This document shows positions 1 through 17,102 of a stretch of DNA of 64,000 bases, one piece after another. A program made the translations under genes and the position numbers. Source of the DNA: a bacterium. GTDB taxonomy: Bacteria > Bdellovibrionota_G > JALEGL01. Every line of letters begins with the position of its first letter. Within the stretch, counting starts at the first letter, position 1. The notes beneath the pieces were generated by a model. It saw nothing but the letters and a program-made list of their open reading frames with translations. It made no database searches and had not been told where the DNA came from. Location: contig JALEGL010000012.1 of the NCBI GenBank assembly GCA_022763185.1, positions 1 to 64,000 on the forward strand, read 5' to 3'.

Positions 1-274
1 ATAACCACCTTTGAATTACATGTATGTTGAATCGGACCATTCTTGGAGCAGGGCGTACCACAGGGATTTTACCTTGATAGACCCAGTTACGAATGGTACC
101 TTTGCTGCATTTAAGCAACAAAGCCAATTCATCTACAGTCAACAAATCATCTATTCTCTTGTCAATGAACACAGAAGCATCCTGCCTCTTATGTCCTTGT
201 ATATCATACTCTGAATGATCTTTTAATGTTTCTTTTTGATTTAAATGTGAACCCGCCAAGATGCTTGGATTCAA
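1..274 (-). CDS. Excisionase-like HTH protein, 3' end outside window
   Basis: The minus strand reads an open frame whose C-terminal part looks like a MerR/excisionase-type helix-turn-helix: residues LTVDELALLLKCSKGTIRNW, then a YQGKIP turn and a basic RMVRF stretch. Proteins of this kind bind DNA and often act as Xis or recombination directionality factors in integrative elements; that role is inferred from the setting. No ATG lies in frame near the expected start. I place the start at a TTG (274-272) that overlaps the TGA stop of the upstream gene as TTGA, which suggests translational coupling. This start also puts the recurrent GGCGGGT element at +18, as in neighbouring genes. The protein continues beyond position 1, so its full length is unknown. 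Confidence 0.75.
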   Translation of the reverse strand, partial: MNPSILAGSHLNQKETLKDHSEYDIQGHKRQDASVFIDKRIDDLLTVDELALLLKCSKGTIRNWVYQGKIPVVRPAPRMVRFNIHVIQRWL

Positions 275-660
275 GCTTGCACCTCAGAGTTTGATGAAAC
301 ATTTGCTACTACAGGTTTCATACTACTTGATGATTTAGATTCTGATAAAACCACATTTTGTTGAGCATATTTTATCTTTTTCTGCATCATTTTTAACATG
401 GCTTCAGGATCAAGAGATTCATCCATATCATTTAAGATAGACTTAAAGTAATCAACCTTCTGAAAATGATCAGAAATAATTCTACTTTTTTCTCTCTTAA
501 ATGAATTGTCATAGAATCTTTGTATGATCCATGAGGTCAATTTAGATGCATTTATTTTAATGTAATCATTATTATTCTTTAAATGATCTAACATTAATTC
601 TACTGTTTTATTGGCTTGTTCATCTATATTTAAACGAACATTTTTCATTTTTTGTTTCAT
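271..660 (-). CDS. Hypothetical protein, conjugation cluster, 129 aa
   Basis: I do not recognise this family. The 129-residue product is basic in its first two thirds (MKQKMKNVRLN start, WIIQRFYDNSFKREKSR in the middle), is predicted to be mainly helical, and ends in a Ser-rich tail. It has no signal peptide or membrane segment, so it should be cytosolic. A good ribosome-binding site (AAGGAAA) precedes the ATG. Its stop overlaps the TTG of the excisionase-like gene. Position and charge would fit a relaxosome accessory or regulatory DNA-binding protein, but that is a guess from context. The upstream 180 bases carry direct and inverted repeats described separately. Confidence 0.7.
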   Translation of the reverse strand: MKQKMKNVRLNIDEQANKTVELMLDHLKNNNDYIKINASKLTSWIIQRFYDNSFKREKSRIISDHFQKVDYFKSILNDMDESLDPEAMLKMMQKKIKYAQQNVVLSESKSSSSMKPVVANVSSNSEVQA

Positions 661-701
661 GTTTTTATTTCCTTTTAGTTTATTGTATAAGTTTGTTCAT
701 A

Positions 702-717
702 TTAGGAACTGACCTAA
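702..717. repeat. Inverted repeat TTAGG-6-CCTAA upstream of the 129-aa gene
   Basis: Five-base arms TTAGG (702-706) and CCTAA (713-717) flank aactga. It lies about 40 bases upstream of the minus-strand start at 660, where an operator could sit. Short arms mean chance is possible. Confidence 0.35.
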
Positions 718-798
718 CTTCTCTTGATTTTTAGCGTTTAAAAAACAAGTTAATTCAGTACCTTAAAGTTTTCACCCTAGCTACGCTCTACAAACATG

Positions 799-832
799 GT
801 CTCTAGTTTGTTTCTAACACTAGGTCTCTAGT
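799..832. repeat. Direct repeats of GGTCTCTAGT, 24-base period
   Basis: The 10-mer GGTCTCTAGT occurs at 799-808 and again at 823-832, so the copies lie about two helical turns apart. Both sit in the 181-base non-coding gap between the replication-relaxation gene and the 129-aa gene. A protein-binding array (promoter operator or oriT-type accessory site) is possible; the sequence alone cannot decide. Confidence 0.5.
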
Positions 833-841
833 AAAATTGAC

Positions 842-1597
842 TTAATCAATCATAATTGTTTCTCCTTTCTGATTGGTAAATGTCACAGAACCAGAGTGGT
901 TTATGACATCGTTGGTTTTACAAAAGTAAAAACGGTATTGTTCATCTTGGACAATACTTTGTTCAGCTTGAGTCAGGTTTTTGTAAATTTGTGGATCAGA
1001 ATAAATGTATAAGACAATATTGTATTCAGCTGCTGCATAATACTGGGCAGCTTTGCTGGCATAACGTTTTTCCTTTTTGTTGATTGATTCGTACTCAATT
1101 GGAAAAACAAAGTCGCTATTCTGATTAAGGGTTACCGTCATAAGAGCATCACTTCTTATGTGGTAAGACAGGTTTACATAAGACATTGCATCTGATTTTT
1201 TATTCTGTAAAACGATGTTTTCAGTTTTATAATCGGTGACCGTTTTAAGTTGAGTTAAGCTATGCTTTATATCAACTAAGGTAATGTCATGCGTTTTTGA
1301 GTCACTCTGTATTTGAGTATAGGTATAATCAAATACATCGTTTTTTATGATACGCTGAAACGTCTCCTCAGTAATAGAATAAGTGTGACGGGTCCTGCTG
1401 CCAAACAAGGCAAAACCTCGTTTAATCCAGCCACCATTGTTGAGCTTGTCAAGCCTTTTACAAACGACACTTTTGGCTTTGTATCCAAAAACATCACGAT
1501 TGATTTGCTGGACGGTTGCGACTCTATTTTCATAAAGATATTGAAAGATGGCAATATCTCTGGGTGTAACAATTTTATTGGCTTTAGCTATGGTCAT
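842..1597 (-). CDS. Replication-relaxation family protein (MobC-like)
   Basis: The 251-residue product resembles the replication-relaxation (Replic_Relax) family of plasmid and conjugative-element proteins. The first ~75 residues form a winged helix (TPRDIAIFQYLYENRVATVQ, then KRLDKLNNGGWIKRG). The remainder has a nuclease-like layout with a THDITLVDIKHSL segment and FPIEYES followed by a lysine-rich helix. Members are thought to help plasmid replication or DNA processing at transfer; the exact role here is inferred. I chose the ATG at 1597 because GGAAGGAG lies just upstream; an in-frame ATG 36 bases earlier is less well placed. The start overlaps the end of the FtsK-like gene by 14 bases, which supports co-translation. 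Confidence 0.65.
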   Translation of the reverse strand: MTIAKANKIVTPRDIAIFQYLYENRVATVQQINRDVFGYKAKSVVCKRLDKLNNGGWIKRGFALFGSRTRHTYSITEETFQRIIKNDVFDYTYTQIQSDSKTHDITLVDIKHSLTQLKTVTDYKTENIVLQNKKSDAMSYVNLSYHIRSDALMTVTLNQNSDFVFPIEYESINKKEKRYASKAAQYYAAAEYNIVLYIYSDPQIYKNLTQAEQSIVQDEQYRFYFCKTNDVINHSGSVTFTNQKGETIMID

Positions 1598-3089
1598 TTT
1601 TTTCTCCTTCCTTCGATTTTTTATAGCCGCCATTGGCCTTTGAATGGACTACTTTTCTTGTAGACATATTTTCTTGTTGGTTTTTCCTATTGCCAAGTTC
1701 AAACTCGCCTTTGATTTGTTTAAGGCGATAATCAAACTCTTGTTCAGAGATAAATGGTGCCTGCAGCTCCAACTCTTTAGGACCACATTTCCAAATACCT
1801 CTCCCTGGAATGTTAGGGAGTTTATTAGCAGCATTGGTTCCAAGGACATTGCTAGACCCATGAAAGGTTTGCATTCTAAAGATCATGCGACCTTCAACGT
1901 TGTCTTGGATATGTGTATCAATGGTTTCTTTGGTTACTTTTTGAGTTGCCATAACCAAATGAATACCCGCAGCACGACCTAGCTTGGCTATTTCATTGAC
2001 AAGATGCCGGGTAGAATCCGTTTGTGCTTTAACAGCGGCAGGGGCACTTTGCGGCTTAGCAAATAAGACACTGGCTTCATCAATACCGACAACAATGCGA
2101 TCAAGTTCATCCCGTTCTGGAACGATAAACTTCTTACCGATTTTGGCAATGAGGTTAAAACGTGATTGCATTTCATCGTGTATTTTTTTGATGAGCTTAC
2201 TGGCTTCTTGATTGTTTTTGGCAATGTGAACATTGGGCAAAATACCAAAGTCACTCATTTCAACACCATTTTTTAAATCGATTAAGTGGAGCTGAATGTT
2301 CTTTGAACTTTCCAACAAACCAAGCAAGGCTTGCCTAAAGAACATGGATTTACCACCACCAGTGGTTCCTGCTATGAGCATATGAGGAAGCTTAGTTATG
2401 TCCTGAGTAAAACTCCCTTCACGACATGCTCCCAATTTAAATGTATACTCAGAAGGTAAGATGATGTCTGAATAATTACACTTTTGCGGCATAGGCTTCT
2501 TGGATAAGTAGATATCTACATAGCCATGCTTATGACTTTGCTGTATATCTTCTACGGCTACTTGCATGGCAGAAGCAAGCTGATCTTTTTTGCTTTCAAA
2601 GTCATTTAAGCTTAAGCCTGGAGCAAAGACATGCATCTTCGATTGCATGGAGTTGAGCTTGTGATAGCTTTTGACTTGTGCTTTAGCTCCTGAGCCATTC
2701 TTTAGGCTGAGTCTATCGAGCTTATTTTGAATGCTTTTTTGCTGCAGGACAAAGTGCCCACCAATGAAGAACAACATGATAACCATGTACACACTGAGCA
2801 GACCTAAATAGTAATAGATCCTGTGTGAATCAAAGATCATGTAGGCCCATGGATCTATAAACTTGCCTATAAACCCAGTCCAAGCAGTAAAGGTTAATAA
2901 ATGTTGCTTACTCCCAGATAAAAAGTGAGCTAAACCAATACCTAAGGCTATAAAGGCATACGTTAGTATGTGATTGGCTGGAAAGTTTTTGATTCCTCTC
3001 CAGATTCCAGTAAAAATAATGTTGATGATGGTGCCTATGAAGATTAAAATCTCTCCCATAGAGTCAAAATCGTTTTTGTGTTTTTCCAT
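1584..3089 (-). CDS. FtsK/SpoIIIE-type DNA translocase, putative coupling protein
   Basis: A 501-residue membrane-anchored ATPase of the FtsK/SpoIIIE type. Two or more hydrophobic segments occupy roughly residues 15-130. The motor follows, with Walker A GTTGGGKS near residue 240, Walker B IVVGIDEASVLF, and the family signatures HLVMATQK and NVEGRMIFRM. The length is far below chromosomal FtsK (about 800-1300) and no gamma winged-helix domain is seen, so it is not the cell-division translocase. Standing directly after VirB10 and before a replication-relaxation gene, it most likely feeds DNA into the secretion channel in place of VirD4, as TcpA-type proteins do in Gram-positive elements. The ATG at 3089 has an upstream GGAG. 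Confidence 0.85.
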   Translation of the reverse strand: MEKHKNDFDSMGEILIFIGTIINIIFTGIWRGIKNFPANHILTYAFIALGIGLAHFLSGSKQHLLTFTAWTGFIGKFIDPWAYMIFDSHRIYYYLGLLSVYMVIMLFFIGGHFVLQQKSIQNKLDRLSLKNGSGAKAQVKSYHKLNSMQSKMHVFAPGLSLNDFESKKDQLASAMQVAVEDIQQSHKHGYVDIYLSKKPMPQKCNYSDIILPSEYTFKLGACREGSFTQDITKLPHMLIAGTTGGGKSMFFRQALLGLLESSKNIQLHLIDLKNGVEMSDFGILPNVHIAKNNQEASKLIKKIHDEMQSRFNLIAKIGKKFIVPERDELDRIVVGIDEASVLFAKPQSAPAAVKAQTDSTRHLVNEIAKLGRAAGIHLVMATQKVTKETIDTHIQDNVEGRMIFRMQTFHGSSNVLGTNAANKLPNIPGRGIWKCGPKELELQAPFISEQEFDYRLKQIKGEFELGNRKNQQENMSTRKVVHSKANGGYKKSKEGEKNDHS

Positions 3090-3099
3090 AATGCTTCTC

Positions 3100-4014
3100 C
3101 TATCTTTTGGGTAAAAGCTCAATCCAAAGGACGGTGTCTTGTGGGACAATGACGTACTCTTTGTTTTGAGCAAATTCGTTTAAGTTTCTTTGGGTTTCAA
3201 GTTCAGCCATGCGATACACACTTTGCAGTGCTGCATTACCTAAGCTTGCTTTGATGGTGGCTTCACCAAATTGATTTAAGGCTTCACGCTGGGTTAAGAC
3301 GTCGCTGGTGGTACCCACCATGGTAGTTCCAAGGGTGGATAAAAGACGTTTGCCATGTTGTCTTTTGCGTTTGCCTGCAATGCCCAGCTGCTTGTTTTTT
3401 AAATTAAGTGCCCGTATATTGACTTGATGAATACTGCCATCAGGTTTAATGGCTTTATCCATTTTAAGGTAGACCTGACTTCCAGAACCTGGATAAGAGA
3501 AACTGCCTAAGACAATGGTGCCTTGAGGGAAGTACTCTTTTTCCTTGTAGTGGATGCCAGAAGTCAAAAGCACTTCTACAGCTGAAGGCATTCTTGTATC
3601 AATTTGATGCATGAGTGTACCTTGCATACGGATACCTCTGGGTGGTATTTTATGGTGATTGGTGTTTTGAATCACCATGGGACCACCATAGTCATACAAA
3701 CGCCTGCGCTTTGCTGGCTTTCTTTTACTTCGCCTTGGTCTTTGTCTAACAGGTTTAGGTGAAATCCCCATTATATTTTCTTCAGAAACAACCGCTGCAA
3801 CTGTATCTTCTGGAACAGATTCAATCAGCATGACATTGCTTTGACGAATCACTTTGTTTTTGGACTTTCTAAAGTAGATAGAGACCAAAGACACCACAAG
3901 CATCAATGAGCATAATCCAATGCCAAAATTTCTGACATGGATCACCGTCTTTGCGCCATCTTCTTTGGTTAACCAAGCCTTGAACCCTTTTTTACTAACA
4001 GTACTACTGTTCAT
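3100..4014 (-). CDS. virB10: VirB10/TrbI-like type IV secretion protein
   Basis: The 304-residue product has a short cytosolic N-terminus, one membrane segment near residues 28-47, a basic linker (RPRRSKRKPAKRRR) and a C-terminal beta domain typical of VirB10/TrbI/TraB: GTLMHQIDTRMPS, FPQGTIVLGSFSYPGSGSQVY, and a final PQDTVLWIELLPKR. VirB10 spans both membranes, forms part of the core complex and senses ATP use by the motors. It is shorter than many homologues (about 380-480), mainly in the periplasmic linker, and Pro-rich repeats are absent. It overlaps the VirB9-like gene by four bases (ATGA), and the FtsK-like gene follows after 10 bases. Confidence 0.85.
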   Translation of the reverse strand: MNSSTVSKKGFKAWLTKEDGAKTVIHVRNFGIGLCSLMLVVSLVSIYFRKSKNKVIRQSNVMLIESVPEDTVAAVVSEENIMGISPKPVRQRPRRSKRKPAKRRRLYDYGGPMVIQNTNHHKIPPRGIRMQGTLMHQIDTRMPSAVEVLLTSGIHYKEKEYFPQGTIVLGSFSYPGSGSQVYLKMDKAIKPDGSIHQVNIRALNLKNKQLGIAGKRKRQHGKRLLSTLGTTMVGTTSDVLTQREALNQFGEATIKASLGNAALQSVYRMAELETQRNLNEFAQNKEYVIVPQDTVLWIELLPKR

Positions 4015-4721
4015 AAAAACCTCCCTGGAATGATGATGGATGTGTTTAAATGTTTGTATTGAATGACAAGCGTAAAGCTTTTCCTGTCTTTAAGCTTTAG
4101 CCTTAATCGACCAGAAACTACCTGATGTTTGCTCAAGCGTTCTTTGTTGATATCTAGTTTATGCTTAACTTTAAAGACACGGTTAAAGAGTCTAAACCTA
4201 GCTTTAATATGCTTAGACTTAAGCTTTTTGCTTTTTAGGTTTTTGACTTTAAAGTTGATTCTGTGGACCTTTGAGTTGGGATCAAAGGCGATAGAATCAA
4301 TTTTAAAGATCAAACGTTTGCCTAAATACAGATGCCGATTAAACTTTTTGGTGTGTGCTTTACGTGTTTTTTTAGACTTGGATGCATTGATATAAACCAA
4401 GTCATCAAAGTTTAGCCCGTCACGTTCAACCCTTAAAATAAAGCTTAAGGTACCCGTATCATTGTACACAAAGAGATTGCTCTTGCCTTCATTCTTGGGG
4501 CGAATGATCAAGTCATTACCCAGAAACTGCGTCTCAAAATGTGCTGGATTGCCCAGAACAATATGAGATGGCGCTTGAGTAAAGCGCAAGATGGTCGCTT
4601 TGCCTACTTTAAGATAAATAGGTTTTAGCGTATGCTGAGAAGCCTGCAGATGTCGTATGACATCTGCTTGACTGTTTGTTATGTTAATTAAAAATAGACC
4701 CGCCAATAGATAGCGAATCAA
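4011..4721 (-). CDS. VirB9/TraK-like outer-membrane core component
   Basis: The 236-residue protein starts with a signal peptide (MIRYLLAGLFLINITNSQA). Next is a domain resembling the N-terminal part of secretin/VirB9/TraK proteins: YLKVGKATILRFTQAPSHIV, then NEGKSNLFVYNDTGTLSF. The second half is very rich in Lys and beta-prone. Order and size fit the VirB9-like partner of VirB10 in the outer-membrane core; identity as VirB9 rather than TraK is uncertain. No separate VirB7 lipoprotein gene was found. The gene overlaps its neighbours by four bases on each side. It carries GGCGGGT at +18. Confidence 0.7.
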   Translation of the reverse strand: MIRYLLAGLFLINITNSQADVIRHLQASQHTLKPIYLKVGKATILRFTQAPSHIVLGNPAHFETQFLGNDLIIRPKNEGKSNLFVYNDTGTLSFILRVERDGLNFDDLVYINASKSKKTRKAHTKKFNRHLYLGKRLIFKIDSIAFDPNSKVHRINFKVKNLKSKKLKSKHIKARFRLFNRVFKVKHKLDINKERLSKHQVVSGRLRLKLKDRKSFTLVIQYKHLNTSIIIPGRFL

Positions 4722-5488
4722 TTCTCAAACTCGATTAATGAATTAACATACAAACCCATGGGATTAAAAGACGTTTTACGGCCTTTAATAATCCCAAGCT
4801 TAATTTGAACTGGGACAATGATGGGGATATCATTGATACGTAAGATCCGATCAAAGATGGCAAAAGAATCAGTATTGGTTAAAATCGGTTTGATTCTTGT
4901 GACATACTGCTCAATGGATTCGCCCGGTTTGTTCTTGGCCTTTTTGTTTCCTAAAAGATCTGAAAGACCTTTTAAAAAAGTCTTGGTGGCATAGGGCTTA
5001 AGCGCATAGGTGATCTTTTTTGGATCAAACTCTTTCCAAGTGTAGCGCTGTTCAACAAACTTCTCAATAAAGTCTTTGACGTCTTCATTGGTCAGCTTCA
5101 TACTTGAGAGTTCTTTGACTTTTTTATCTGCGCGATCATACGCCAAAAAAGGTTTGTTGATCTGCATGTAAAGAAGTCCAGACAATGCAATTGTAATAAC
5201 AATCAGTCCTATGCTTAAAAACTTAAACAGCTCTAAGCTTTTTACTGTGCTTGTCCATTGCTTGACGGCTGGATCAATGTAAGAAGAGGATTTGTCTTCT
5301 TTATAATCCAGATTTTCAATTTTTGTTTCATCTTTGATGAAGTGTTCTTCATCATGATGGTTTATAAGGTCATCGCGAAGTCTGATATCAGACTTTGTCG
5401 TGACTTGATCGGAGTCAAAAGAAGATGTTTCTTTTGTGACTCCTTGGTTAAGATTATTGATACCCGCCGTTTGTTTTGTATTGTTCAT
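4718..5488 (-). CDS. VirB8/TraE-like inner-membrane secretion protein
   Basis: A 256-residue bitopic protein with a long acidic cytosolic tail (1-88), one membrane segment (about 91-110, LSIGLIVITIALSGLLYMQI) and a periplasmic domain of about 145 residues. That fits VirB8/TrbF/TraE, which nucleate the inner-membrane complex. The frame is open further upstream, inside the VirB6 gene, but AAGGAAACCACC before the ATG at 5488 fixes the start. Residues 18-26 read TKETSSFDS, a peptide also found at the C-terminus of the protein at 13245-13721. GGCGGGT lies at +21. VirB8 assignment rests on topology and order rather than clear motifs. Confidence 0.7.
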   Translation of the reverse strand: MNNTKQTAGINNLNQGVTKETSSFDSDQVTTKSDIRLRDDLINHHDEEHFIKDETKIENLDYKEDKSSSYIDPAVKQWTSTVKSLELFKFLSIGLIVITIALSGLLYMQINKPFLAYDRADKKVKELSSMKLTNEDVKDFIEKFVEQRYTWKEFDPKKITYALKPYATKTFLKGLSDLLGNKKAKNKPGESIEQYVTRIKPILTNTDSFAIFDRILRINDIPIIVPVQIKLGIIKGRKTSFNPMGLYVNSLIEFEN

Positions 5489-5504
5489 GGTGGTTTCCTT
5501 AGTG

Positions 5505-6374
5505 TTACTTCTCCTGTTGTTTATTGTTAAAACTACGATTAGCCCTATGCTGACCGTAGTGTTTTTGCTGAGCTTTTGGCTCATCAAACTTTGTGTTATC
5601 TTCATTGGAAGACATAAAGCTTTGTTTAAACTTATGTCCGGCACTGATGACGGGCATGGCTGATACGCCAGTTGCTACTGATTGCAATCCACTGCTGATC
5701 AGTGAGTTGGTAGCAATGGGTACAAAAATCATGCTGAAGCCAATACATAAGTTAACTAAAGCTGTGGTAAAAAAGTTATCCCAACTTTGTACTTCTGGAC
5801 TGACAGCAAACTTTAACAGCATGACTCCTAGAATGCTCCATAGCACTTTCCAAATGGTTACCTGAATCAAACCTTTAAACAGACTTGCTGTTATGAACGA
5901 TGTGTAGCGTGACACATACATCAGAATCATCAAAGGTGACACCACATACAATATGCTCCAGACAAATTGGATGAGAATGTTGGTAATGAAGATGCCAATA
6001 TAGGCTATGAGATAAGACACCAAGTTAATCACAAAGATTAGAGCTTCTCTAAACTGTAACCACTTAGGGGACGTTTCTTCATAGTTCTTTTGAATCTCAT
6101 CCAATAGATCAGTCAATTGTCCAATGCCATTGATGTGCTCAGTTAAGCCATCACCCACCATAGCAATGATCCCCATGATCTGTTCAAAAGACAGCAGTAT
6201 GATAATTGATATCACGGTTCTTTTAAGGATATTCATTGGATTGGGGGTATGCTCATCCACATTTAAGAATTCTAGAATGATCAAAAACAGCACAAAAGGA
6301 ACCAGCATCATCCAATAAGCGGACACCAAATGACCTCTAATTTCACCACAGACCTCTGGTAAAAAGCCAAACAT
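5505..6374 (-). CDS. VirB6/TrbL-like polytopic membrane protein
   Basis: The 289-residue product has five to seven hydrophobic stretches, including VPFVLFLIILEFL, VISIIILLSFEQIMGIIAMV and LIAYIGIFITNILIQFVWSIL, and a hydrophilic Gln-rich tail (QQKHYGQHRANRSFNNKQQ). This is the pattern of VirB6/TrbL, the inner-membrane channel protein of type IV secretion systems. The start overlaps the stop of the VirB5-like gene by one base (TAATG), and the VirB8-like gene starts 16 bases after its stop. A specific subfamily cannot be named without a search. Confidence 0.75.
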   Translation of the reverse strand: MFGFLPEVCGEIRGHLVSAYWMMLVPFVLFLIILEFLNVDEHTPNPMNILKRTVISIIILLSFEQIMGIIAMVGDGLTEHINGIGQLTDLLDEIQKNYEETSPKWLQFREALIFVINLVSYLIAYIGIFITNILIQFVWSILYVVSPLMILMYVSRYTSFITASLFKGLIQVTIWKVLWSILGVMLLKFAVSPEVQSWDNFFTTALVNLCIGFSMIFVPIATNSLISSGLQSVATGVSAMPVISAGHKFKQSFMSSNEDNTKFDEPKAQQKHYGQHRANRSFNNKQQEK

Positions 6375-7060
6375 TACTCAAACTCCGGCAGTTTAAAGCC
6401 ATCACTGAACATGGATTTAGACTTTTTAAGATCGTCGCCTACAGTGTTAAAGTGATTGACTGAGTCTTTGCTGTACTTGTTATCCAAAGCCAGCTTCTCA
6501 CTTTGCAGTTTAAGCATCTGACCATTGACTTTAAGCAATTGATTTAAGGTATGCAGAATTTGGGCATTGGTTTGAGCATTAGCACGCAAAGCACCTTTAG
6601 GGCTCAAAGCATTGGCAGATTCTGTAATCTTGATGGCATTGTCTTCTTGCTCTTTGGCGTACTTAGAGATGTTCACGTTCATCTTTAAGCTCTCAGCAAT
6701 GCTTTTATCATGCAGTTCTTGAATTGCAGACTCAGCACTGTCTGGGATATCTCCATACAGTTCTTTGATCGTGCTTAGAGCAATGCCCATACTTTGCAGT
6801 TCTTTTAAAACTGCTTCATCTTCAATAGGTAAAGCGCTTTGAATATGATTAAGTCTATCCAAACCACTGTTGACCTGCTCAAGAATATGTCTTTGTGCTC
6901 TGCCTTCACGCAAGACACTGCGTAGTTGATTGTAACGTTTTTTACTTTCAACTACGATCTTTATAAGATGTGGAATAGCCGCAGCACTACCAAATATGGC
7001 ATAAGCATTGGTGCTTATGCATATGATTAAAATAAACCCGCCAAGTTTAAGTGATCTCAC
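6374..7060 (-). CDS. VirB5/TrbJ-like periplasmic pilus-assembly protein
   Basis: A 228-residue secreted helical protein. It begins with a signal peptide (MRSLKLGGFILIICISTNAYA) and then AIFGSAAAIPHLIKIVVESK, an arrangement common in TrbJ/VirB5. Long amphipathic helices follow, with Gln/Leu-rich segments such as NQLLKVNGQMLKLQSEKLAL. VirB5-class proteins are minor pilus components needed for transfer. The GTG start overlaps the VirB4 stop by four bases (GTGA). The first 30 coding bases closely resemble those of the pilin gene at 10125, including GGCGGGTTTAT at +19. Confidence 0.75.
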   Translation of the reverse strand: MRSLKLGGFILIICISTNAYAIFGSAAAIPHLIKIVVESKKRYNQLRSVLREGRAQRHILEQVNSGLDRLNHIQSALPIEDEAVLKELQSMGIALSTIKELYGDIPDSAESAIQELHDKSIAESLKMNVNISKYAKEQEDNAIKITESANALSPKGALRANAQTNAQILHTLNQLLKVNGQMLKLQSEKLALDNKYSKDSVNHFNTVGDDLKKSKSMFSDGFKLPEFE

Positions 7061-9531
7061 TTTTTCTCCTTTTGGTTATTATTAAAGTCTTCAGAAACAA
7101 TATGCTCTAAAACTTCGAGCAATGTTTTCTCTGGAAACTGTTGTTGAACAGTATGAATGATTTGTTTATCTTTGGGATCAGTGGTGCAGATCCAATAGGC
7201 CAGTTGGTCAGAAGACAATCGCAATACAGATCTTCCAGTATCTTGCATATAAAACAGTTCACTGAATTTCCCTTTTTGCATGGTCAAAAACTTTACAGCA
7301 TCTACCTCAGTACTACTGAGCTGCAGCTTATCTTTAAAGTCTTCCCAGTCAATGCCTCTTTGTTTTAGGATAAAGGTAGATGTTGTGTTAGGGAAAATAG
7401 AATTGGCCATGGCGGTATTGCTTAGAAAGTCTTTGTAGTTTTGACTGATGGCCCAAATGCCGGCGTTGAACTTTCTAAAGGTCCTGTATGCTTCTAAAGT
7501 AAAAGCCAAACCACTGGGTGTTTCAAACAATTTCCAAGCTTCATCTATAATCAATAAGTACGGCCTATCCAGCTCACGTGATGCTTCAGATTGAATGAAG
7601 TCAGTAAACAGCAGTAAGAATACATTTTGCAGATCTTCATAAGCATCCAAGCCCTTAATCTCAATGGTGACTAAGTCTTTATCAATGTTGACATTGCTTT
7701 GACCATCCAGCATTTTCCCGTACATAGTATCCCCGGTCCAAGTGTATAAAATCTGGGCATAGGCATGCATGTTTGGGTTTTCACTGTTAGTTAACTGTTC
7801 TTTAAAATCTGATAGTGTTGGTGTTTGATCAACACCAATGTCATCATAAGTTTTAAAAATCAGTTCTTCTAACTGTGCTTTATCTCTTTTGGGTAAGATA
7901 TGTTGATGTTTATCGACTAAGATATTTTCCAAAACAGCTAGGATCAGCTTGATCTTGTTGGCACTGGGAACTGTTTGACCTTTGGGTAGATCAAACATAT
8001 TCAGACAAATATCTGAATCAGTGGTTAGGTTGATAAACTCACCACCCAAGACTTCAATCAGTTTTTGTGAAGAGGCACCATTATCTATCCAAATGATCTT
8101 TGGCGTTGGCTTTTGTCCATAGAACTGAAGCATTAGTTGTGAGATAGTAAAGCTTTTACCAGATCCTGAACCGCCAAAAACCAAGCCATTCCAGTTGGGT
8201 AAGCTTGAGTCAAATGGATTAAGACTAAAGGGTATGTTGTCTTGATTGCTTAATAAACATACGGGTTCGTTATTGCCTTGCCATGCGCTAAACACAGGGA
8301 ACATATGTGCAGCATTGCTGCTTTTTACTTTCTTGCTTCTAAAAGTATTGCAGACACCAGGTATGTTAACCATAAACGCATCAAGTCCAGCATAGGTTTC
8401 AATCACCCCTTGCGCTTGATTCATATGGGTAAATGCTTTTAAAACTTCATCACATTTTAAATCAAGATCTTGATCGGTGTATCCCCAGACAATCACGTTC
8501 ATAGAACAATTCACTAACTTTTCTGTACCTTCTAATAAATCTTTGGATAAAGACTCAATCTGATTGAGTTTGTTTTCAGACTCTAAGTCTCTAACACCAT
8601 TAGAACCGTTGGCCATAGAATGGGCTAAACGCCTATGCACTGCCATCTTTTCCATTTCTTTTTTCTGTGTGGGTATTTCAATGGTATGAGAGATCCAGCA
8701 GTGAAAGGGCAGTTTTAAAATACTCTGCACCATCGAAGCAGTACTCACACCTTCAGGTAAAGTGTGTAGACTAATGGTTCTAAACTTGAGTCTACCTAGT
8801 TCGATATTTTCTTTGCTGACATGCAGATCGGTAAGGGTTAACTGAGAGACAAAGTCACCCGCTGCATTGTATTGAGCTCTTTGTACTTTATCTAACCTGT
8901 CTAAATTTAAATGCTCATAAAGCAGGTCAAACCATTCATTGATTTTAAGTTTGATCGGCTTAAAATTACAATGCTGCAGTGAAGACTCTATCTGCTTGAC
9001 GTGCCGTTCAAAAGCATAATAGTGTTGATCAAAGTCCGCTTGAGAGAGTTGTATAAACTTCTTAGTGCTTTGTAAGACATTGCCTTTTGAAAGTTTATGC
9101 GCTTGTGACCGAACAAAAACATAAAGCTCTGGTTGAAAGAACAGTTTGTCTGTGTTCTTTTTATTTAAAAAGTTAAAGCGATGCTGAGCGATACTTTTAT
9201 AGCTACTATTACTTTCACTTGATAGAGCTTTATGCTTATTGATGATTGGATCAACATTGGAGGTTAGCCTGTAGAAAAACTGCAGACTCAACCCTTCATG
9301 TGCACTATTAATCATGTTTTTTATGTGTAACAGTGTATTGTTGATACTCTCTGGAGTAGATAAATTAATATCGATACCCTGGAGTTGAAAAGCCTTCCCT
9401 AATGAGCCGTCTTCATAGACCATACAGTTTCTAAATGGACGCCAAAAGGGCAGTTGATCGCTTAAGCTTTGATACGCTGGAAGCTGCCGCTTATCAGCAG
9501 CCTCCATGTTTGTTTTATTTTGTAATAACAT
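7057..9531 (-). CDS. virB4: VirB4/TraC-type conjugation ATPase
   Basis: This is the largest gene of the cluster, 824 residues. An N-terminal TraC/VirB4 domain (PFWRPFRNCMVYEDGSLGKAF) is followed by the C-terminal RecA-like motor with Walker A GGSGSGKS near residue 452 and Walker B YLLIIDEAWKLF near residue 660. The motif RTFRKFNAGIWAISQNYKD and a late TTDPKD also match the family. VirB4 powers pilus biogenesis and substrate transfer from the inner membrane. An in-frame upstream start exists, but AAAGGAACAAAC before the ATG at 9531 makes that start better. It overlaps the VirB3-like gene by 17 bases. Confidence 0.95.
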   Translation of the reverse strand: MLLQNKTNMEAADKRQLPAYQSLSDQLPFWRPFRNCMVYEDGSLGKAFQLQGIDINLSTPESINNTLLHIKNMINSAHEGLSLQFFYRLTSNVDPIINKHKALSSESNSSYKSIAQHRFNFLNKKNTDKLFFQPELYVFVRSQAHKLSKGNVLQSTKKFIQLSQADFDQHYYAFERHVKQIESSLQHCNFKPIKLKINEWFDLLYEHLNLDRLDKVQRAQYNAAGDFVSQLTLTDLHVSKENIELGRLKFRTISLHTLPEGVSTASMVQSILKLPFHCWISHTIEIPTQKKEMEKMAVHRRLAHSMANGSNGVRDLESENKLNQIESLSKDLLEGTEKLVNCSMNVIVWGYTDQDLDLKCDEVLKAFTHMNQAQGVIETYAGLDAFMVNIPGVCNTFRSKKVKSSNAAHMFPVFSAWQGNNEPVCLLSNQDNIPFSLNPFDSSLPNWNGLVFGGSGSGKSFTISQLMLQFYGQKPTPKIIWIDNGASSQKLIEVLGGEFINLTTDSDICLNMFDLPKGQTVPSANKIKLILAVLENILVDKHQHILPKRDKAQLEELIFKTYDDIGVDQTPTLSDFKEQLTNSENPNMHAYAQILYTWTGDTMYGKMLDGQSNVNIDKDLVTIEIKGLDAYEDLQNVFLLLFTDFIQSEASRELDRPYLLIIDEAWKLFETPSGLAFTLEAYRTFRKFNAGIWAISQNYKDFLSNTAMANSIFPNTTSTFILKQRGIDWEDFKDKLQLSSTEVDAVKFLTMQKGKFSELFYMQDTGRSVLRLSSDQLAYWICTTDPKDKQIIHTVQQQFPEKTLLEVLEHIVSEDFNNNQKEKK

Positions 9532-9835
9532 GTTTGTTCCTTTGGTGAATGTGTTTAGATTGTTGAGCAGCACTAAAAAACCCTGATTGGCTTTGATAGC
9601 GCAGATAATGCTTTAAAAAGTCATCAGGTTTATTGCGCTTGCCAAGAATCAGCAACAAGGCTAAAACAGCAGGCACAATAAACACCATGATGAGATTTAA
9701 AGGTGTTTGCCCAAAAATAAGATTGTTGATTGAGGCAATCAATAGAACCAAGAGGAGATCTTGGGCATTAAAGCCCAAGATCTTAAATTGGCTATCAAGA
9801 TGCCGATGAATCTCGCTTTGTTCAAGATACGACAT
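9515..9835 (-). CDS. VirB3/TraL-like membrane protein
   Basis: The 106-residue protein has a short hydrophilic N-terminus (MSYLEQSEIHRHLDSQFKIL) and two adjoining hydrophobic segments (AQDLLLVLLIASINNLIFG and LNLIMVFIVPAVLALLLIL). A basic tail ends it. This is the layout of VirB3/TraL, which associates with VirB4 at the inner membrane. The ATG at 9835 follows the pilin stop by five bases, with a GGGG ribosome site inside the pilin's last codons. Its 3' end overlaps the VirB4 start in another frame. Confidence 0.75.
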   Translation of the reverse strand: MSYLEQSEIHRHLDSQFKILGFNAQDLLLVLLIASINNLIFGQTPLNLIMVFIVPAVLALLLILGKRNKPDDFLKHYLRYQSQSGFFSAAQQSKHIHQRNKHVITK

Positions 9836-9840
9836 CACAA

Positions 9841-10125
9841 TTACCCCGCAGCACTCTGAATGAATGCTATGATTTGTGGAGCCATGAAACCAATGGCACT
9901 GCATGCTAAAACAGCATAGATTTTACCTTTTGCTTCACCACTCCCTGTGACAGATAAGAGCACAGCATAAATCAATCCCAATACACTCATTAGGGGTAAA
10001 ACCACGCTAATGAGCTGATTGGTGAGATTGTTCATTCTGCTTTCAAATCCACCAAAGGCCCAGGCTATCTCTGGGATAGCCATAGAAAAAATTAATATAA
10101 ACCCGCCAAGTACTACACGACTCAC
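9841..10125 (-). CDS. virB2: VirB2/TrbC-like pilin
   Basis: A 94-residue small hydrophobic protein with an N-terminal signal (VVLGGFILIFSMAIPEIAWA) followed by a FGGFESRMNN segment and two membrane helices separated by a short polar loop (SVTGSGEAKGK). This is the classic TrbC/VirB2 pilin pattern. After signal cleavage the mature protein would be about 72 residues. The GTG start overlaps the upstream gene by four bases (GTGA). GGCGGGT is at +19. Confidence 0.85.
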   Translation of the reverse strand: MSRVVLGGFILIFSMAIPEIAWAFGGFESRMNNLTNQLISVVLPLMSVLGLIYAVLLSVTGSGEAKGKIYAVLACSAIGFMAPQIIAFIQSAAG

Positions 10126-10463
10126 TTTACCTTTCTTAGGACTAGGTCATGTTTGTACGGTGGGATTTCTATCTTGATGCTACCAGTAGTAGTCTCATAA
10201 CCTTCACCCAAAGTTTTACGTGATTTGGTTTCATTGTCATCAATGGTCTCCAAGCGATACTTGGTATCAGCACTATGAAACTCCACAGCTCTGACGTAGT
10301 ATCTGCGAGAAGGGGAGAACACATCAATTTTTAGTCTGTATTCATCATAGCCTTCTTCATGAAAGCCTACACCTGCTGGATATTTTCTATCCTGATCACG
10401 CCACTCTAGTTGAAACACACGAGACTTGTCTCGCTGATTTTTATTGTTGTTATAATTATTCAT
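10122..10463 (-). CDS. Hypothetical protein in the transfer operon, 113 aa
   Basis: I do not recognise this family. The product is hydrophilic, with an Asn-rich start (MNNYNNNKNQRDKSR) and a beta-rich body (YRLKIDVFSPSRRYYVRAVEF, TTGSIKIEIPPYKHDLVLRK). There is no signal peptide or membrane segment. A weak purine-rich site (AAAAGGAAAAT) precedes the ATG. It lies between the sigma-like regulator and the pilin and overlaps the pilin start by four bases, so it is made with the secretion apparatus. Role unknown. Confidence 0.75.
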   Translation of the reverse strand: MNNYNNNKNQRDKSRVFQLEWRDQDRKYPAGVGFHEEGYDEYRLKIDVFSPSRRYYVRAVEFHSADTKYRLETIDDNETKSRKTLGEGYETTTGSIKIEIPPYKHDLVLRKVK

Positions 10464-10518
10464 TTGTTATTTTCCTTTTTGTTAAATTTTAAAAATTGCT
10501 TTGTTTTTCTTACAAAGT

Positions 10519-10812
10519 TTAAATTGTTAATAAACCCGCCTTCAAGCCCAAGGGCTTAGGTCTGTTAAACCTTTTGTGATAGACACGCCTTAAGCTAGCC
10601 AATGCTTGCTTATACAGAGCCTCAATCTTTTTCACTGAGATGCCGCTTGTTGAAGCAATCTCTTGTAAAGAATGTCCTCTGTAAAAATGAAGATGTGCTA
10701 CCAAGAACTCAGACATCGGAAGATAGTGCATTTGCTGTGCAACAAATCTTCTTTCATGTTCACTGAATTCATCTTCAATAATCTCTAACCCGCCAATGTC
10801 TGTGTTAAGCAC
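10519..10812 (-). CDS. Sigma-70 region 4-like small regulator
   Basis: The 97-residue protein contains a helix-turn-helix of the sigma-70 region 4/LuxR type: FYRGHSLQEIASTSGISVKK, then IEALYKQALASLRRVYHKRF. No region 2 is present, so it is not a complete sigma factor. It probably binds DNA or RNA polymerase to control the transfer operon at whose head it stands. Its GTG start overlaps the stop of a 20-codon leader peptide by eight bases, so its translation may depend on the leader. GGCGGGT appears at +19 and a second copy (10534-10540) lies just before the stop. Confidence 0.75.
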   Translation of the reverse strand: MLNTDIGGLEIIEDEFSEHERRFVAQQMHYLPMSEFLVAHLHFYRGHSLQEIASTSGISVKKIEALYKQALASLRRVYHKRFNRPKPLGLKAGLLTI

Positions 10813-10867
10813 GACCAGGGATTAGGTTGAAATTTATAAAAACCCGCCAGTTGATGTTACTAATCAT
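10805..10867 (-). CDS. Leader peptide of the transfer operon, 20 aa
   Basis: A very short frame starts at an ATG preceded by a strong ribosome site (AAAAAAGGAGAAAAAT) and encodes MISNINWRVF then INFNLIPGRA before TAA. Its stop lies inside the first codons of the sigma-like gene, which itself lacks a good ribosome site. This is the usual layout of a translationally coupled leader. It carries GGCGGGT at +20, in a different reading frame from its neighbours. The peptide's own function is unknown; translation of the region may be what matters. Confidence 0.6.
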   Translation of the reverse strand: MISNINWRVFINFNLIPGRA

Positions 10868-10911: not shown

Positions 10912-10996
10912 GACATGCAAATCTACAAAGCAGGATGCGTGCCAACTTTTAAAAAAGGATAAAAATAAAAAAAGCGTAGGATTTTGAGTCAACATT

Positions 10997-11134: not shown

Positions 11135-12049
11135 TTATATGTTTAAAGTCTGTTTTACTTTTTTAATATAGTTTTTAGATTTTTGTTCATTCATTTTGCT
11201 CTGGTTAAGAAGCTTCCATTTGATTGAAGGGTGCTCTTTGATTTTTGGAAAAGCATATAATTCCCAATTAGGTTGATTTTGAACAAAACTTAATAAGAAT
11301 TGTTTGTCTTGATCTTTTAGAATATTTTTAATTAAGGCAAAAAACTTTTTTCTTATGGATAGCAATTTATTGAGAGATACTTCGGTATTAGACATGCCAA
11401 GAAAGTTTTGGAGATATGCTTGCTCAATTTCAACTTCATTAGGCTCTAAAAGCTCATGTATAGGTCTATTCGATGACAGTAGGTGATAAATAAAGCTGTT
11501 TTTTATTTCTTCAGTAATTCCTTCGTTGTTTAATAAGATCATAATATCAAAAAGATCTCTTGGGTGTTGTCTATCTAGGGCAGCACAAAGCTTTCCGCCA
11601 TATATGTCAGCTATATCAAGACATTGAATCGTGTTTTCAAGTTTGAATTGTTGTTTAGCATCTATGCATAATTCTTTTTGGCTAACTTTGTATACTGATC
11701 CCCTTAAAATATAATTGGGTTCAATTTTGATGAATATGTTTTGGTCATAGACGGTTAGTTTAGTTTCTTTGTTTTGATGTGTTGGAGTTGAGAGAGTGAC
11801 TTTTAATTTTTGATATTTTTCTATATCAGTCTTGATGGTATCTAGAGCTTTATGGATCTTAGTATAAGTTTCTTTTCTATCTACTACGGGTAAAAAACAA
11901 AGATCAATATCAACAGAAAATCTAGGCATGTTTCTGTAGTATAGATTAATTGCTGTTCCACCTTTTAAAGCAAAGAATGAGTGCTTAAAAACATAAGGAA
12001 TGACCTTAAGCAACAATTCAACTTGTTGTTGATATGGATTATTATTCAA
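11135..12049 (-). CDS. abiEii: AbiEii-type nucleotidyltransferase toxin
   Basis: The 304-residue protein has the hallmark of the AbiEii/DUF1814 nucleotidyltransferases: FALKGGTAINLYY followed by RFSVDIDLCF, giving the GG-x-S-x-DID active site. The later IADIYGGKLCAALDRQHPRD segment (KxxAxxxR-x-RD-like) and FDIMILL also match. AbiEii is the toxin of a type IV toxin-antitoxin pair, known in related systems to modify tRNA acceptor ends and to give phage abortive infection. The start is a TTG overlapping the AbiEi stop as TTGA. As part of a transfer element it probably stabilises the element or blocks phage. Confidence 0.92.
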   Translation of the reverse strand: MNNNPYQQQVELLLKVIPYVFKHSFFALKGGTAINLYYRNMPRFSVDIDLCFLPVVDRKETYTKIHKALDTIKTDIEKYQKLKVTLSTPTHQNKETKLTVYDQNIFIKIEPNYILRGSVYKVSQKELCIDAKQQFKLENTIQCLDIADIYGGKLCAALDRQHPRDLFDIMILLNNEGITEEIKNSFIYHLLSSNRPIHELLEPNEVEIEQAYLQNFLGMSNTEVSLNKLLSIRKKFFALIKNILKDQDKQFLLSFVQNQPNWELYAFPKIKEHPSIKWKLLNQSKMNEQKSKNYIKKVKQTLNI

Positions 12050-12807
12050 AATGGATTTTCCGGATATTGTTTAGGTACTGTAATATTATACTTCTTATCA
12101 AGCATACCATTTTTTACAATTACATAACGACTAGTGCCTAGATGTATTTTTTTTAAATTGAGCTTTTTATAGTAGGGATGGTTCAGCTGTTCAGAAAGGT
12201 ATAGAAAGGTTCGTTTTACTTTTATTGAAGAACAGTTTTCCAGTAATTTTTGTAATACGTCTGGTCTTAATGAATGAAGCATTTCAAGATAATGTGTAAC
12301 GTCTTCAAATGAATACCTTAAATCGCTTGCATATATATACTCTAATATTGCTTGTTCTCTTGATGCTATGATTAGATCAAAACCTGAATTTTGAGTTTTA
12401 AGCTCAAGCTTTTGACTTTTCAGTAAATTTGATTGAGTCCAAAAAAAGTTACAATTAAAATTCAATTTTTTGAACCACGTGGGGATAGTTTCTTTTGAGT
12501 ATGTCCAAACAAACACACTTGGTTTTTTACCTAATACGCCATAATGAATTACTGAATTAAGTTCTAATGCTGATTTTGAGGCTACATGTATTTTTTTATT
12601 TAGTTCATGTTGAAGGAGACGTATACCAGCTTCCCAGTTTAATTTATCATTTGGCCTTTTATAGACTCCTGGTCCTATTTTATCAAAATAGCCTGAGGTA
12701 TAGTATTTGTGAACCAATTGTTGACTGATACCGTGTTGTTTAAACCATTTCATAGAGTGGATATCTTCAGGGAGCCATTCTTGCAATATTTTAGTTAATT
12801 TTGTCAT
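12046..12807 (-). CDS. abiEi: AbiEi-type antitoxin and autorepressor
   Basis: The 253-residue product shows an N-terminal winged helix (MKWFKQHGISQQLVHKYYTS, then GYFDKIGPGVYKRP) and the AbiEi_1 C-terminal domain (ASREQAILEYIYASDLRYSF). AbiEi neutralises AbiEii without direct binding and represses its own promoter through paired inverted repeats. Two such repeats and a promoter lie directly upstream here. I chose the ATG at 12807, which leaves a short untranslated leader after the predicted transcription start; a TTG at 12819 is an alternative. It is followed by and overlaps abiEii. Confidence 0.88.
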   Translation of the reverse strand: MTKLTKILQEWLPEDIHSMKWFKQHGISQQLVHKYYTSGYFDKIGPGVYKRPNDKLNWEAGIRLLQHELNKKIHVASKSALELNSVIHYGVLGKKPSVFVWTYSKETIPTWFKKLNFNCNFFWTQSNLLKSQKLELKTQNSGFDLIIASREQAILEYIYASDLRYSFEDVTHYLEMLHSLRPDVLQKLLENCSSIKVKRTFLYLSEQLNHPYYKKLNLKKIHLGTSRYVIVKNGMLDKKYNITVPKQYPENPF

Positions 12808-12815
12808 CTTATTCA

Positions 12816-12830
12816 ACAACCTATAGTTGT
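12816..12830. promoter_or_regulatory. AbiE operator, downstream inverted repeat
   Basis: ACAACCTATAGTTGT, flanked by TTCA and GATATT, matches the repeat at 12884-12898 (ACAAC...TAGTTGTGA core). It covers the predicted transcription start of abiE, fitting negative autoregulation by AbiEi. Confidence 0.7.
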
Positions 12831-14396: not shown

Positions 14397-15578
14397 ATGG
14401 TAATGACACATCAAATGGTACATGCTTACATAGAAAATAACTTTAAAATTTTAGCGCAATTTGCGGTTTTAGCACTATTGATAATCCTTTTTCAATCATG
14501 TGGTCTAGGCCAAGATATTTTAAGTCAAACTGAATTTGTAGAAGATAGGGATGTTGCTTTAGAAATCATCAGTGGAAATGGACAAGTAGGTGTAATCAAT
14601 CAAGCCTTGGCTTTTCCATTGGTTGTTAGAGCTATTGACGATGAAGCATTGCCCTCTGAAAATGAAAGAATTGAATTTACTGTTATCATGGGCAGTGCAA
14701 GTGTTACTTCAGTTTCCTATACTGATGCTAACGGTTTAGCAGAAGCAACTGTAAGTCTTGGGCCCAATACTGAGCAGGTTCAAATTAAAGCCTATTGGCC
14801 AAGAGGTGAAAGAGAAGCGATTTTTGATATAACAGCCAGTATTGCTATTTTACAAGTTGAGTCTGGACCTGGTTATAACGGCGCTCCTGACTGTGTTCGT
14901 GAAAACCAAGAATTTGGTGTTCCCTATGTTGTTGAGCTTATTGGACCCAATGATCAGCCTATAGCTAATACAGATGTGTTAGTGACCATAAGCAATGGCT
15001 CACTTGATCAATCAAGCTTTGAAAACAGTGTAACCTATACAACTGCAAGTAACGGAAAAATTACTTTTGATGTTGTTGCAGGTGCTACTGACCTTGATCA
15101 ATACAAAAAAGAAGTTAGAGTAACTGCGGTTGTTCCCAGTATGTTGGATGTTCAACCAATTATTTTAGAGTTAGAAACAACACGAGATAAGTTTATCGAA
15201 GCAGTTTCTTCTGATGTTCAATATTCAGAGAGCCCTCATGATCAAACTCATGATTTTGCGTTTACTGTAAAAGTCTTAGGTGAGTGTGATGCGGTTTTAA
15301 TTGATGAGCCAGTGCAGTTTGAACGTAGATGGAGTGCTCAAATTGCATCACCTTGTGACTATGATCAAACAGCCCCTTATCATCAAGATTGGTATGATCT
15401 TGGAGCAGCTGTAAGTAATAATCAAGGTTTCGCGACCTATACTAGAAACCTGGAAGTTCGCTATTGGGAAGAAAGCTTTATTTGGACCCGTCATAATGAT
15501 GTTAGAGCCACGTTATTCAATACAATCAACGGCAACAGTAAACAGTTTGCAGCAAATCACTATCTTTGTCAGGACTAG
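14397..15578 (+). CDS. Ig-like (Big) domain lipoprotein, 393 aa
   Basis: The product has a hydrophobic segment ending in LLIILFQSC, a likely lipobox, so it should be a lipoprotein. Repeated beta domains follow, with bacterial Ig-like features: FPLVVRAIDDEALPSENERI then YTDANGLAEATVSLG, and a second copy with TASNGKITFDVVAGA. Such domains usually act in surface adhesion or as structural spacers. The exact start is uncertain; ATG codons at 14397, 14403 and 14415 are in frame and none has a strong ribosome site. It precedes the kinase gene by three bases, so the three genes to 17755 form an operon. Confidence 0.7.
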   Translation: MVMTHQMVHAYIENNFKILAQFAVLALLIILFQSCGLGQDILSQTEFVEDRDVALEIISGNGQVGVINQALAFPLVVRAIDDEALPSENERIEFTVIMGSASVTSVSYTDANGLAEATVSLGPNTEQVQIKAYWPRGEREAIFDITASIAILQVESGPGYNGAPDCVRENQEFGVPYVVELIGPNDQPIANTDVLVTISNGSLDQSSFENSVTYTTASNGKITFDVVAGATDLDQYKKEVRVTAVVPSMLDVQPIILELETTRDKFIEAVSSDVQYSESPHDQTHDFAFTVKVLGECDAVLIDEPVQFERRWSAQIASPCDYDQTAPYHQDWYDLGAAVSNNQGFATYTRNLEVRYWEESFIWTRHNDVRATLFNTINGNSKQFAANHYLCQD

Positions 15579-15581
15579 ACA

Positions 15582-17102
15582 ATGGGTATTTCTGAGCAAT
15601 ATACAATCTTGGGCAAAGTCGCTCAAGGGGGCATGGCAGAAATATTTAAGGCTGAAAAACTTGGTTTAGACAATTGTAAAAAGACGGTTGCTATTAAGAA
15701 AATTATCAGACCTAAAGCAGATTCAGATGAATTTAAAACCATGTTTAGTGAAGAAGCCAAGATCATTAGCTTGCTCAATCACCCCAATATTGTGTCTTTT
15801 GATGAGTACTTTTTGTATGACAATGATCCTTGTATTGCTTTTGAATACATTGAAGGAATAGATTTAAATGAGCTTTTAAAAGAACATAGAAAAGTAAACA
15901 AAACACTTCCTTTGCAAGTCTATCTCCATGTTATAACTGAAATTCTTAAAGCCCTCGATTATGCTCATAAAAAACAACACAATAATGAGCCTCTGAGCAT
16001 CATTCATAGAGATGTCAGTCCTCAGAATATTCTTTTGTCTTACGACGGTTTTGTTAAATTAGCAGACTTTGGTATTGCTTTAGGTGCTTTACCAAGGAAT
16101 GAAACTCAGCTTGGTTTTATTAAGGGCAAAGACAATTACTTTTCTCCTGAGCAAGTAAACTTTGAAACCATAACACATAAAATAGACATTTATGCAGTTG
16201 GCGTCATGCTGCATGAGTATATTTATGGTTTTAGTCCATTTGTATTAAAAGGGATGACTCATAATGAAATTGCAAATCAAATTCGTGAATATAAGAAAGT
16301 TTCTAATGCAGATCCAATTATAGATGTACCCGATGAGTTAATAGAAATAATGAATAAGGCTATGGCTCGTAATTCTGATGATCGCTTTGAAGACGCTAAA
16401 AGCCTCAGATTAAGTTTGTTAAAGTTTTTGTCTTCAGAATGGAAAGAGGAGGGTGCAGATAAACTCAAAGACTATTTAAAAACATACAAAAAAGATGAGC
16501 AGCTTATGCCTTTTACTAAAGTACTGAATGTTGAAAGCGCGTTATCAACGATTTCAAAAAACAAAGAAACGAAGTTACAAAAAGTACTAGATGTATACGA
16601 TGGAATTAATACTAGAGCCGAAAAAGTCTTAAATGCATTTATTATACTGCTTGTATTAATAATCAGTGTTCCTATTGCATATGGGCTATATCAATATAAG
16701 AACAAGCAAGTTGTTGTGAAACCGGCTGAGTTAGAAAATAAAGTGGAAAAAGAAAACTCACTGTCAGGCTTAAACTTAGTACTAGAAAACGCCGTTTTAC
16801 CCTTTGAAGATGAGTTAAATAAACCTGAAATTTTAAAGAAAAAAACTTCTGTTAATTTTAATATAAATAAGAAAACAAAACCTAAGCAAAAAGCTCAATA
16901 TGGCTTTTTAACTATCAATGCTCCAAATAATTCAGAAGCATATATCAATGGTGCGCCTGTAGATCTAAATAAAAAAAATATGAAATTAAAGTATGGCGAA
17001 TATCTTGTTGCAATAAGATCTCCTGAAGGTTTACGCTATATTGAAAAAATAATGATTGGATCAGGTAAGGAGTATAGCGTTAATTGGAGCCCTGAATCGT
17101 GA
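15582..17102 (+). CDS. Hanks-type Ser/Thr protein kinase with PEGA tail
   Basis: The 506-residue protein begins with a kinase domain (about 7-285): P-loop GKVAQGGMAEIFKA, the VAIKK lysine, the IIHRDVSPQNILL catalytic loop and KLADFGIAL with DFG. Essential residues are present, so it should be active. A membrane helix follows (about 346-366, AFIILLVLIISVPIAYGLYQ), and the outer part ends in a PEGA-like domain (GFLTINAPNNSEAYINGAPV). PEGA domains often bind surface structures, so the kinase may sense an envelope cue. Genes of this design are common in myxobacteria and relatives. The final TGA overlaps the GTG of the next gene. Confidence 0.92.
   Translation: MGISEQYTILGKVAQGGMAEIFKAEKLGLDNCKKTVAIKKIIRPKADSDEFKTMFSEEAKIISLLNHPNIVSFDEYFLYDNDPCIAFEYIEGIDLNELLKEHRKVNKTLPLQVYLHVITEILKALDYAHKKQHNNEPLSIIHRDVSPQNILLSYDGFVKLADFGIALGALPRNETQLGFIKGKDNYFSPEQVNFETITHKIDIYAVGVMLHEYIYGFSPFVLKGMTHNEIANQIREYKKVSNADPIIDVPDELIEIMNKAMARNSDDRFEDAKSLRLSLLKFLSSEWKEEGADKLKDYLKTYKKDEQLMPFTKVLNVESALSTISKNKETKLQKVLDVYDGINTRAEKVLNAFIILLVLIISVPIAYGLYQYKNKQVVVKPAELENKVEKENSLSGLNLVLENAVLPFEDELNKPEILKKKTSVNFNINKKTKPKQKAQYGFLTINAPNNSEAYINGAPVDLNKKNMKLKYGEYLVAIRSPEGLRYIEKIMIGSGKEYSVNWSPES

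Follow-up and report, generated by a model that had tools for sequence, protein, structure and literature searches.

The heptamer GGCGGGT lies just inside the starts of seven genes of a conjugative transfer region, and in two related elements the word changes in parallel at the seven homologous starts. Selection on nucleic acid, not on protein, is supported as the reason why the word is kept, and comparison of the three elements implies a trans-acting reader with an element-specific recognition code. We consider it on balance probable that GGCGGGT is the operator word of a post-transcriptional regulon, which is encoded by the element and read at the level of RNA, probably by a repressor.

Sites of GGCGGGT in the transfer region

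The window, which is the whole 64,000-nucleotide stretch of DNA analysed here, contains ten copies of GGCGGGT, compared to 1.2 ± 1.1 expected, and none of 100 shuffled sequences reached ten. Eight copies are located between positions 251 and 10848, all eight on the coding (minus) strand, and seven of them begin at +18 to +21 of transfer-region genes. These seven sites belong to the leader open reading frame (start 10867; word at 10842–10848, offset +20), the sigma-like gene (GTG start at 10812; 10788–10794, +19), the pilin (VirB2-like) gene (GTG at 10125; 10101–10107, +19), the VirB5-like gene (GTG at 7060; 7036–7042, +19), the VirB8-like gene (ATG at 5488; 5462–5468, +21), the VirB9-like gene (TTG at 4721; 4698–4704, +18) and the excisionase gene (TTG at 274; 251–257, +18). 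All of the sites and offsets were found on the minus strand where an earlier note on this DNA had placed them, and the word is read in three frames, as GG, AG or WRV, as had been noted. The eighth copy, which the earlier note overlooked, is located in the 3' end of the sigma-like gene (10534–10540, minus strand), about 70 nucleotides before the start of the gene for protein p113. It codes for a conserved Ala/Val-Gly step, the same place is occupied by GGTGGGA and GCTGGA in the related elements G002 and C11, respectively, and the copy may be coincidental.

The genes appear to form a single operon belonging to a conjugative element, which includes genes for VirB4 (TraC-like), TrbL/VirB6, TrbI/VirB10, an FtsK-like coupling protein, a MobC-like replication-relaxation protein and the excisionase. 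A promoter-like site of the sigma54 -24/-12 type (TTGGCACGCATCCTGCTT; 10928–10945, minus strand) precedes the leader in each of the three elements, and RpoN is encoded in the genome. The leader open reading frame (10805–10867, minus strand) encodes a 20-residue peptide, overlaps the start of the sigma-like gene, and has 19-residue counterparts in C11 and G002.

The enrichment of GGCGGGT at gene starts is confined to this element. The GC content of the sequence is 35–38%, close to the earlier estimate of about 35%, and the genome contains 73 copies of the word in 2.25 Mb, fewer than the 115 copies of the reversed control word. At this genomic rate (73 copies per 4.5 Mb, counting both strands), about 0.001 copies are expected at four offsets in 15 genes, and seven were observed, so that the expectation is far below one, as had been estimated. 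We examined 61 other genomic copies, in 60 loci, for start codons. A start-like codon precedes only four of the 61 at the distance of +18 to +21, all four inside longer open frames, and no credible gene start at that distance was found among the 61 copies. The genome scan proposed in the earlier note thus showed that the word is not frequent after start codons genome-wide, and a genome-wide feature of gene starts is ruled out.

A protein motif or codon bias is ruled out as the cause by synonymous resampling of the 15 genes, in which amino acids were fixed and codons were drawn from the usage of the element. In all 20,000 trials, the best heptamer was common to at most four of the 15 genes, compared to the observed seven. 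The earlier argument that the occurrence of the word in all three frames cannot be explained by a protein motif is borne out by this result.

Coordinated change of the word in related elements

A second element of the same genome (contig C11) encodes a VirB4 protein that is 86% identical to that of the window, and a third element from another genome of the order (G002) encodes one that is 67% identical; the gene order is the same in both. At the seven homologous starts, C11 contains GCAGGG, GGAGGG or GAAGGG, and G002 contains mainly GGTGGGA, with a letter that is not uniform. The counterparts in C11 and G002 are GCAGGGA and GGTGGGA in the leader, GCAGGGA and CGCGGGA in the sigma-like gene, GCAGGGT and GGTGGGA in the pilin gene, GGAGGGT and GGTGGGA in the VirB5-like gene, GCAGGGA and AATGGGT in the VirB8-like gene, GCAGGGT and TGTGGGA in the VirB9-like gene, and GAAGGGT and GGAGGGG in the excisionase gene. 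The VirB8-like start of C11 contains a second GCAGGGA 13 nucleotides beyond the first. The letter preceding GGG is C at all seven starts of the window, A at all seven of C11, and T at five of the seven of G002, although the genes are unrelated and the frames differ. At the VirB5 start, the words of the window and C11 differ only by the synonymous change of GGC to GGA, towards the C11 letter.

The position of the word is conserved together with its core. GGG begins at +20 to +24 in each of the 21 target sites of the three elements, and the zone from +16 to +27 contains GGG in all seven targets of every element, versus none of the eight, eight and seven non-targets. The same letter before GGG in all seven targets was not obtained in any of 50,000 resamplings for the window, nor in any of 50,000 for C11. 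At least five of seven identical letters appeared in 3% of the resamplings for G002, so that the preference of G002 is weak when taken alone.

Since the seven genes are mutually unrelated and their words change in parallel, a shared, trans-acting and element-specific reader is indicated; the coexistence of two words in one genome means that the reader is not the host ribosome alone. The earlier note had expected that homologous elements keeping the amino acids and losing the bases would speak against selection on RNA or DNA. The bases do differ, but they differ jointly at all seven genes, and this coordinated change makes the case for a reader stronger. The proposal of selection on RNA or DNA and of a trans-acting regulator is thus backed, as neither a genome-wide frequency of the word after starts nor a simple retention of the amino acids without the bases was found. 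The comparison comprises three elements; searches with VirB4, p113 and the sigma-like protein among relatives, the phylum, GTDB contigs, viral contigs and plasmids yielded no further close relative, and the word is absent from the inspected starts of distant type IV secretion loci in the genome G003.

The transfer operon belongs to an integrative element that spans positions 1–36465 of the window, with putative right-end repeats at about 36309–36465; the matching repeats near 36.3–36.5 kb suggest that this is the right end of the element. The window begins at base 1 of contig C12, and the end of this contig truncates the excisionase gene. The integrase side of the element is found on contig C8, adjoining a gene that reads as tRNA-Pro, and about 0.6 kb (an estimated size), comprising the integrase N-terminus and the junction, is missing from the assembly. 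The contigs of the window and of C11 (L005) both begin at the same homologous base, apparently because the shared integrase N-terminus collapsed and was lost from the assembly. The two sister elements of this genome are located at two different tRNA-Pro-like genes (L035 and L036 ends). The cargo includes a metal-efflux set of the AcrB/Cus type.

Other features of the three elements were also compared. The pilin-to-VirB6 segment (5525–10214 of the window) is 83% identical in DNA sequence to that of C11 (L005) over 4.7 kb, far above the other transfer genes, which suggests recombination or uneven constraint. In each element, an AbiEii-type gene is found at the equivalent position upstream of the sigma54 site (window 11135–12819; L005 11131–12854; L007 7715–9330), and its antitoxin-side partner differs (AbiEi_3, AbiEi_1/AbiEi_4 and DUF6088), as in a replaceable toxin–antitoxin slot. 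A related Big_1-type (Ig-like) gene adjoins all three elements (window 14397–17755; L005 13484–16763; L007 9474–10670); a kinase-like gene and a conserved 218-residue protein come after it in C11 and in the window.

Level of action and candidate readers

The marked genes differ from the others in the context of their start codons. A four-nucleotide NTGA overlap with the preceding stop codon is present in about 15 of 18 non-leader targets and about four of 23 non-targets, in a hand tally whose counts are non-independent across the three elements. Two reports (PMC6728339, PMC10666635) describe the stop/start overlap as an arrangement typical of coupled translation. The start codon is GTG or TTG in five of the seven targets of the window and ATG in the listed non-targets. 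In toeprints, an initiating ribosome covers the mRNA to about +16, and a ribosome terminating on an overlapping stop covers it to about +13. The word begins just beyond both footprints. We infer that a factor bound past the footprint would escape being swept away by upstream translation, and that this requirement sets the position of the word. A signal read in mRNA would naturally keep a fixed offset from both the start codon and the overlapping stop, and the location of the marked genes mostly at four-nucleotide overlaps points to a probable action on translation.

Based on these positions, a mechanism can be proposed. A trans-acting factor made by the element, either an RNA-binding protein or an RNA, would bind the mRNA at the word (+18 to +27), just beyond the stretch covered by a ribosome that is starting on the gene or finishing at the upstream stop codon that overlaps it. 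The bound factor would set, and most likely lower, the translation of chosen coupled genes, namely those for the leader, sigma-like regulator, pilin, VirB5, VirB8, VirB9 and excisionase. Pairing of small RNAs usually blocks initiation upstream of +18, where the word begins, and activation is therefore possible instead of repression. A private word per element would restrict the factor to its own element, so that it may serve that element and not a coresident relative, as in the heteroimmunity between related phages. As a tentative extension, it is possible that the system represents a new class of conjugative-element immunity, in which a fast-evolving RNA-binding regulator and a word of 6–7 nucleotides at stop/start-overlap genes form a translational heteroimmunity code.

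Three local functions of the word were considered and rejected. It is not a Shine–Dalgarno sequence for a downstream start, since no consistent start follows, and it does not form the -35 region of antisense promoters, since no shared -10 region was recognised by eye. Local hairpins hiding the word are visible by eye at some sites, such as the excisionase, and are not general. At the excisionase starts of the relatives, short hairpins with the motif in them can be drawn by eye (AACCCTTC/GAAGGGTT and CCTTCAC/GTGGAGG; C11 L005 268–240 and G002 L037 1651–1620).

An alternative that we regard as unlikely is that the word is read in DNA. An HTH protein of the element, likeliest the one resembling sigma-70 region 4, would bind the word and block or modify transcription elongation in the operon, in the manner of mycobacteriophage stoperators. 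The orientation of all copies is the same relative to transcription, and the word is element-specific, as in stoperators (PMC6550527). The sigma-like protein (10519–10812, minus strand; Pfam Sigma70_r4, 3e-6) is conserved outside the recognition helix, whereas from A53 to A70 no column is invariant among the three elements, as expected if the DNA specificity had changed. However, the sigma-like gene is itself a target, the word comprises 6–7 nucleotides and not 13, and stoperators have been described in short intergenic spaces (PMC9283540). The start-codon register observed here is tight, with GGG at +20 to +24 in 21 of 21 sites and mostly at coupled starts. To our knowledge, stoperators have no fixed register to start codons.

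It is somewhat less probable that an antisense transcript from one site, carrying ACCCGCC, base-pairs with the other six in trans. RNA transcribed over one site complements all the others, which would explain the coordinated change, and the best complement in the element is the antisense strand of each site. However, extended pairing would favour similarity over a longer stretch, and in C11 and G002 the sites have little in common outside the core; an independent small-RNA-like locus was not detected. CCCGCC occurs in the assembled element only as the antisense strand of motif sites, a duplex-energy scan of the element gave only a weak best complement outside them and nothing convincing, and Rfam matched only tRNAs in the window. 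The segment of the integrase missing from the assembly appears common to both elements and could not encode the difference between their words. In the 60 host loci examined, complements were mostly inside coding frames, and none was convincing as a small RNA. The suggestion of the earlier note that a small RNA with the seed ACCCGCC pairs with the word thus found no locus in the assembled element beyond the antisense of the sites, and no convincing one in the host loci examined. Inside mobC, sense-strand complements are present in G002, in C11 and, if a G-U pair is allowed, in the window; the positions within the gene differ, and we estimate that such complements are expected by chance at these lengths.

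It is very improbable that the word reflects a host translation feature or protein constraint, either an Ala/Gly-Gly pair of signal peptides combined with codon bias or a GGG-type enhancer for the host ribosome: an Ala/Gly/Val-Gly step does occur near the signal-peptide start in pilin, VirB5 and VirB9 of the compared elements, and GGG is common to all three elements, but the leader and cytosolic products bear the word in frames that differ from this one, the explanation fails in codon resampling, a single host ribosome cannot be the reader of two words used in one cell, and none of the copies examined elsewhere in the genome lies at a gene start.

For the preferred reading, in which the word is recognised in mRNA by a factor of the element, p113 is a candidate reader. 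A search of 385 genomes detected this predicted all-beta protein (10122–10463, minus strand) in no element other than these; it belongs to no recognisable family, and its model matched no fold in the PDB. Another candidate is p129 (271–660, minus strand), a predicted helical protein whose gene overlaps the excisionase start; it matched no known family, and its low-confidence model is too poor to use. The sigma-like HTH protein is the candidate for reading at the level of DNA.

Relation to known regulatory systems

That a short word has switched jointly at seven loci unrelated to one another in sister elements, two of them in one genome, is a natural experiment that points to an unseen regulator with private specificity, and the compact code is available in three versions. 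In the case of action on translation, the operators of many targets would lie within coding sequence, at a position dictated by the ribosome footprint at coupled genes, and such a system might underlie compatibility or immunity among conjugative elements. If the immunity reading is true, related elements would be able to coexist in one cell.

Antisense systems of the FinP/FinO and RNAI type provide element-specific control of transfer or replication through variable recognition sequences, and they are structured RNAs acting on one target. Unlike them, the system described here has seven dispersed targets that share one word, and the assembled element yielded no locus for a complementary RNA. 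The binding sites of CsrA/Rsm proteins have a GGA core, which GGCGGGT of the window does not contain, and no match to CsrA was found among the transfer-region proteins scanned.

RegA of phage T4 is the closest multi-target translational repressor. This one small protein of a mobile element binds beside the initiation site of about 30 mRNAs and controls them (PMC3014915), similar to the control of many targets by one factor that is proposed here. The RegA sites overlap the AUG or are located 5' of it, and are A+U-rich without clear conservation, whereas the word described here is strict, G-rich and downstream of the start. No member of the RegA family was detected among the transfer-region proteins scanned with Pfam.

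The closest published parallel is provided by the stoperators of Cluster A mycobacteriophages, according to their element-specific consensus and orientation bias. In L5 and Bxb1, the element-specific consensus tracks the repressor and goes with heteroimmunity (PMC6550527, PMC9283540). No match to a repressor family of the stoperator type was found among the transfer-region proteins scanned with Pfam, NCBIfam and PHROGs. Stoperators are 13-bp DNA sites, compared to the 6–7 nucleotides conserved here in C11 and G002, with modest flank similarity only in the window. They are located mainly in short intergenic spaces, whereas all sites described here are inside open reading frames of a conjugative element, at +18 to +27. 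The repressor bound to stoperators stops RNA polymerase; a candidate for such a binder here is the sigma-like HTH protein. In both cases, many short asymmetric sites are distributed in one mobile element in one orientation, which is the coding strand for all eight copies of GGCGGGT in the transfer region.
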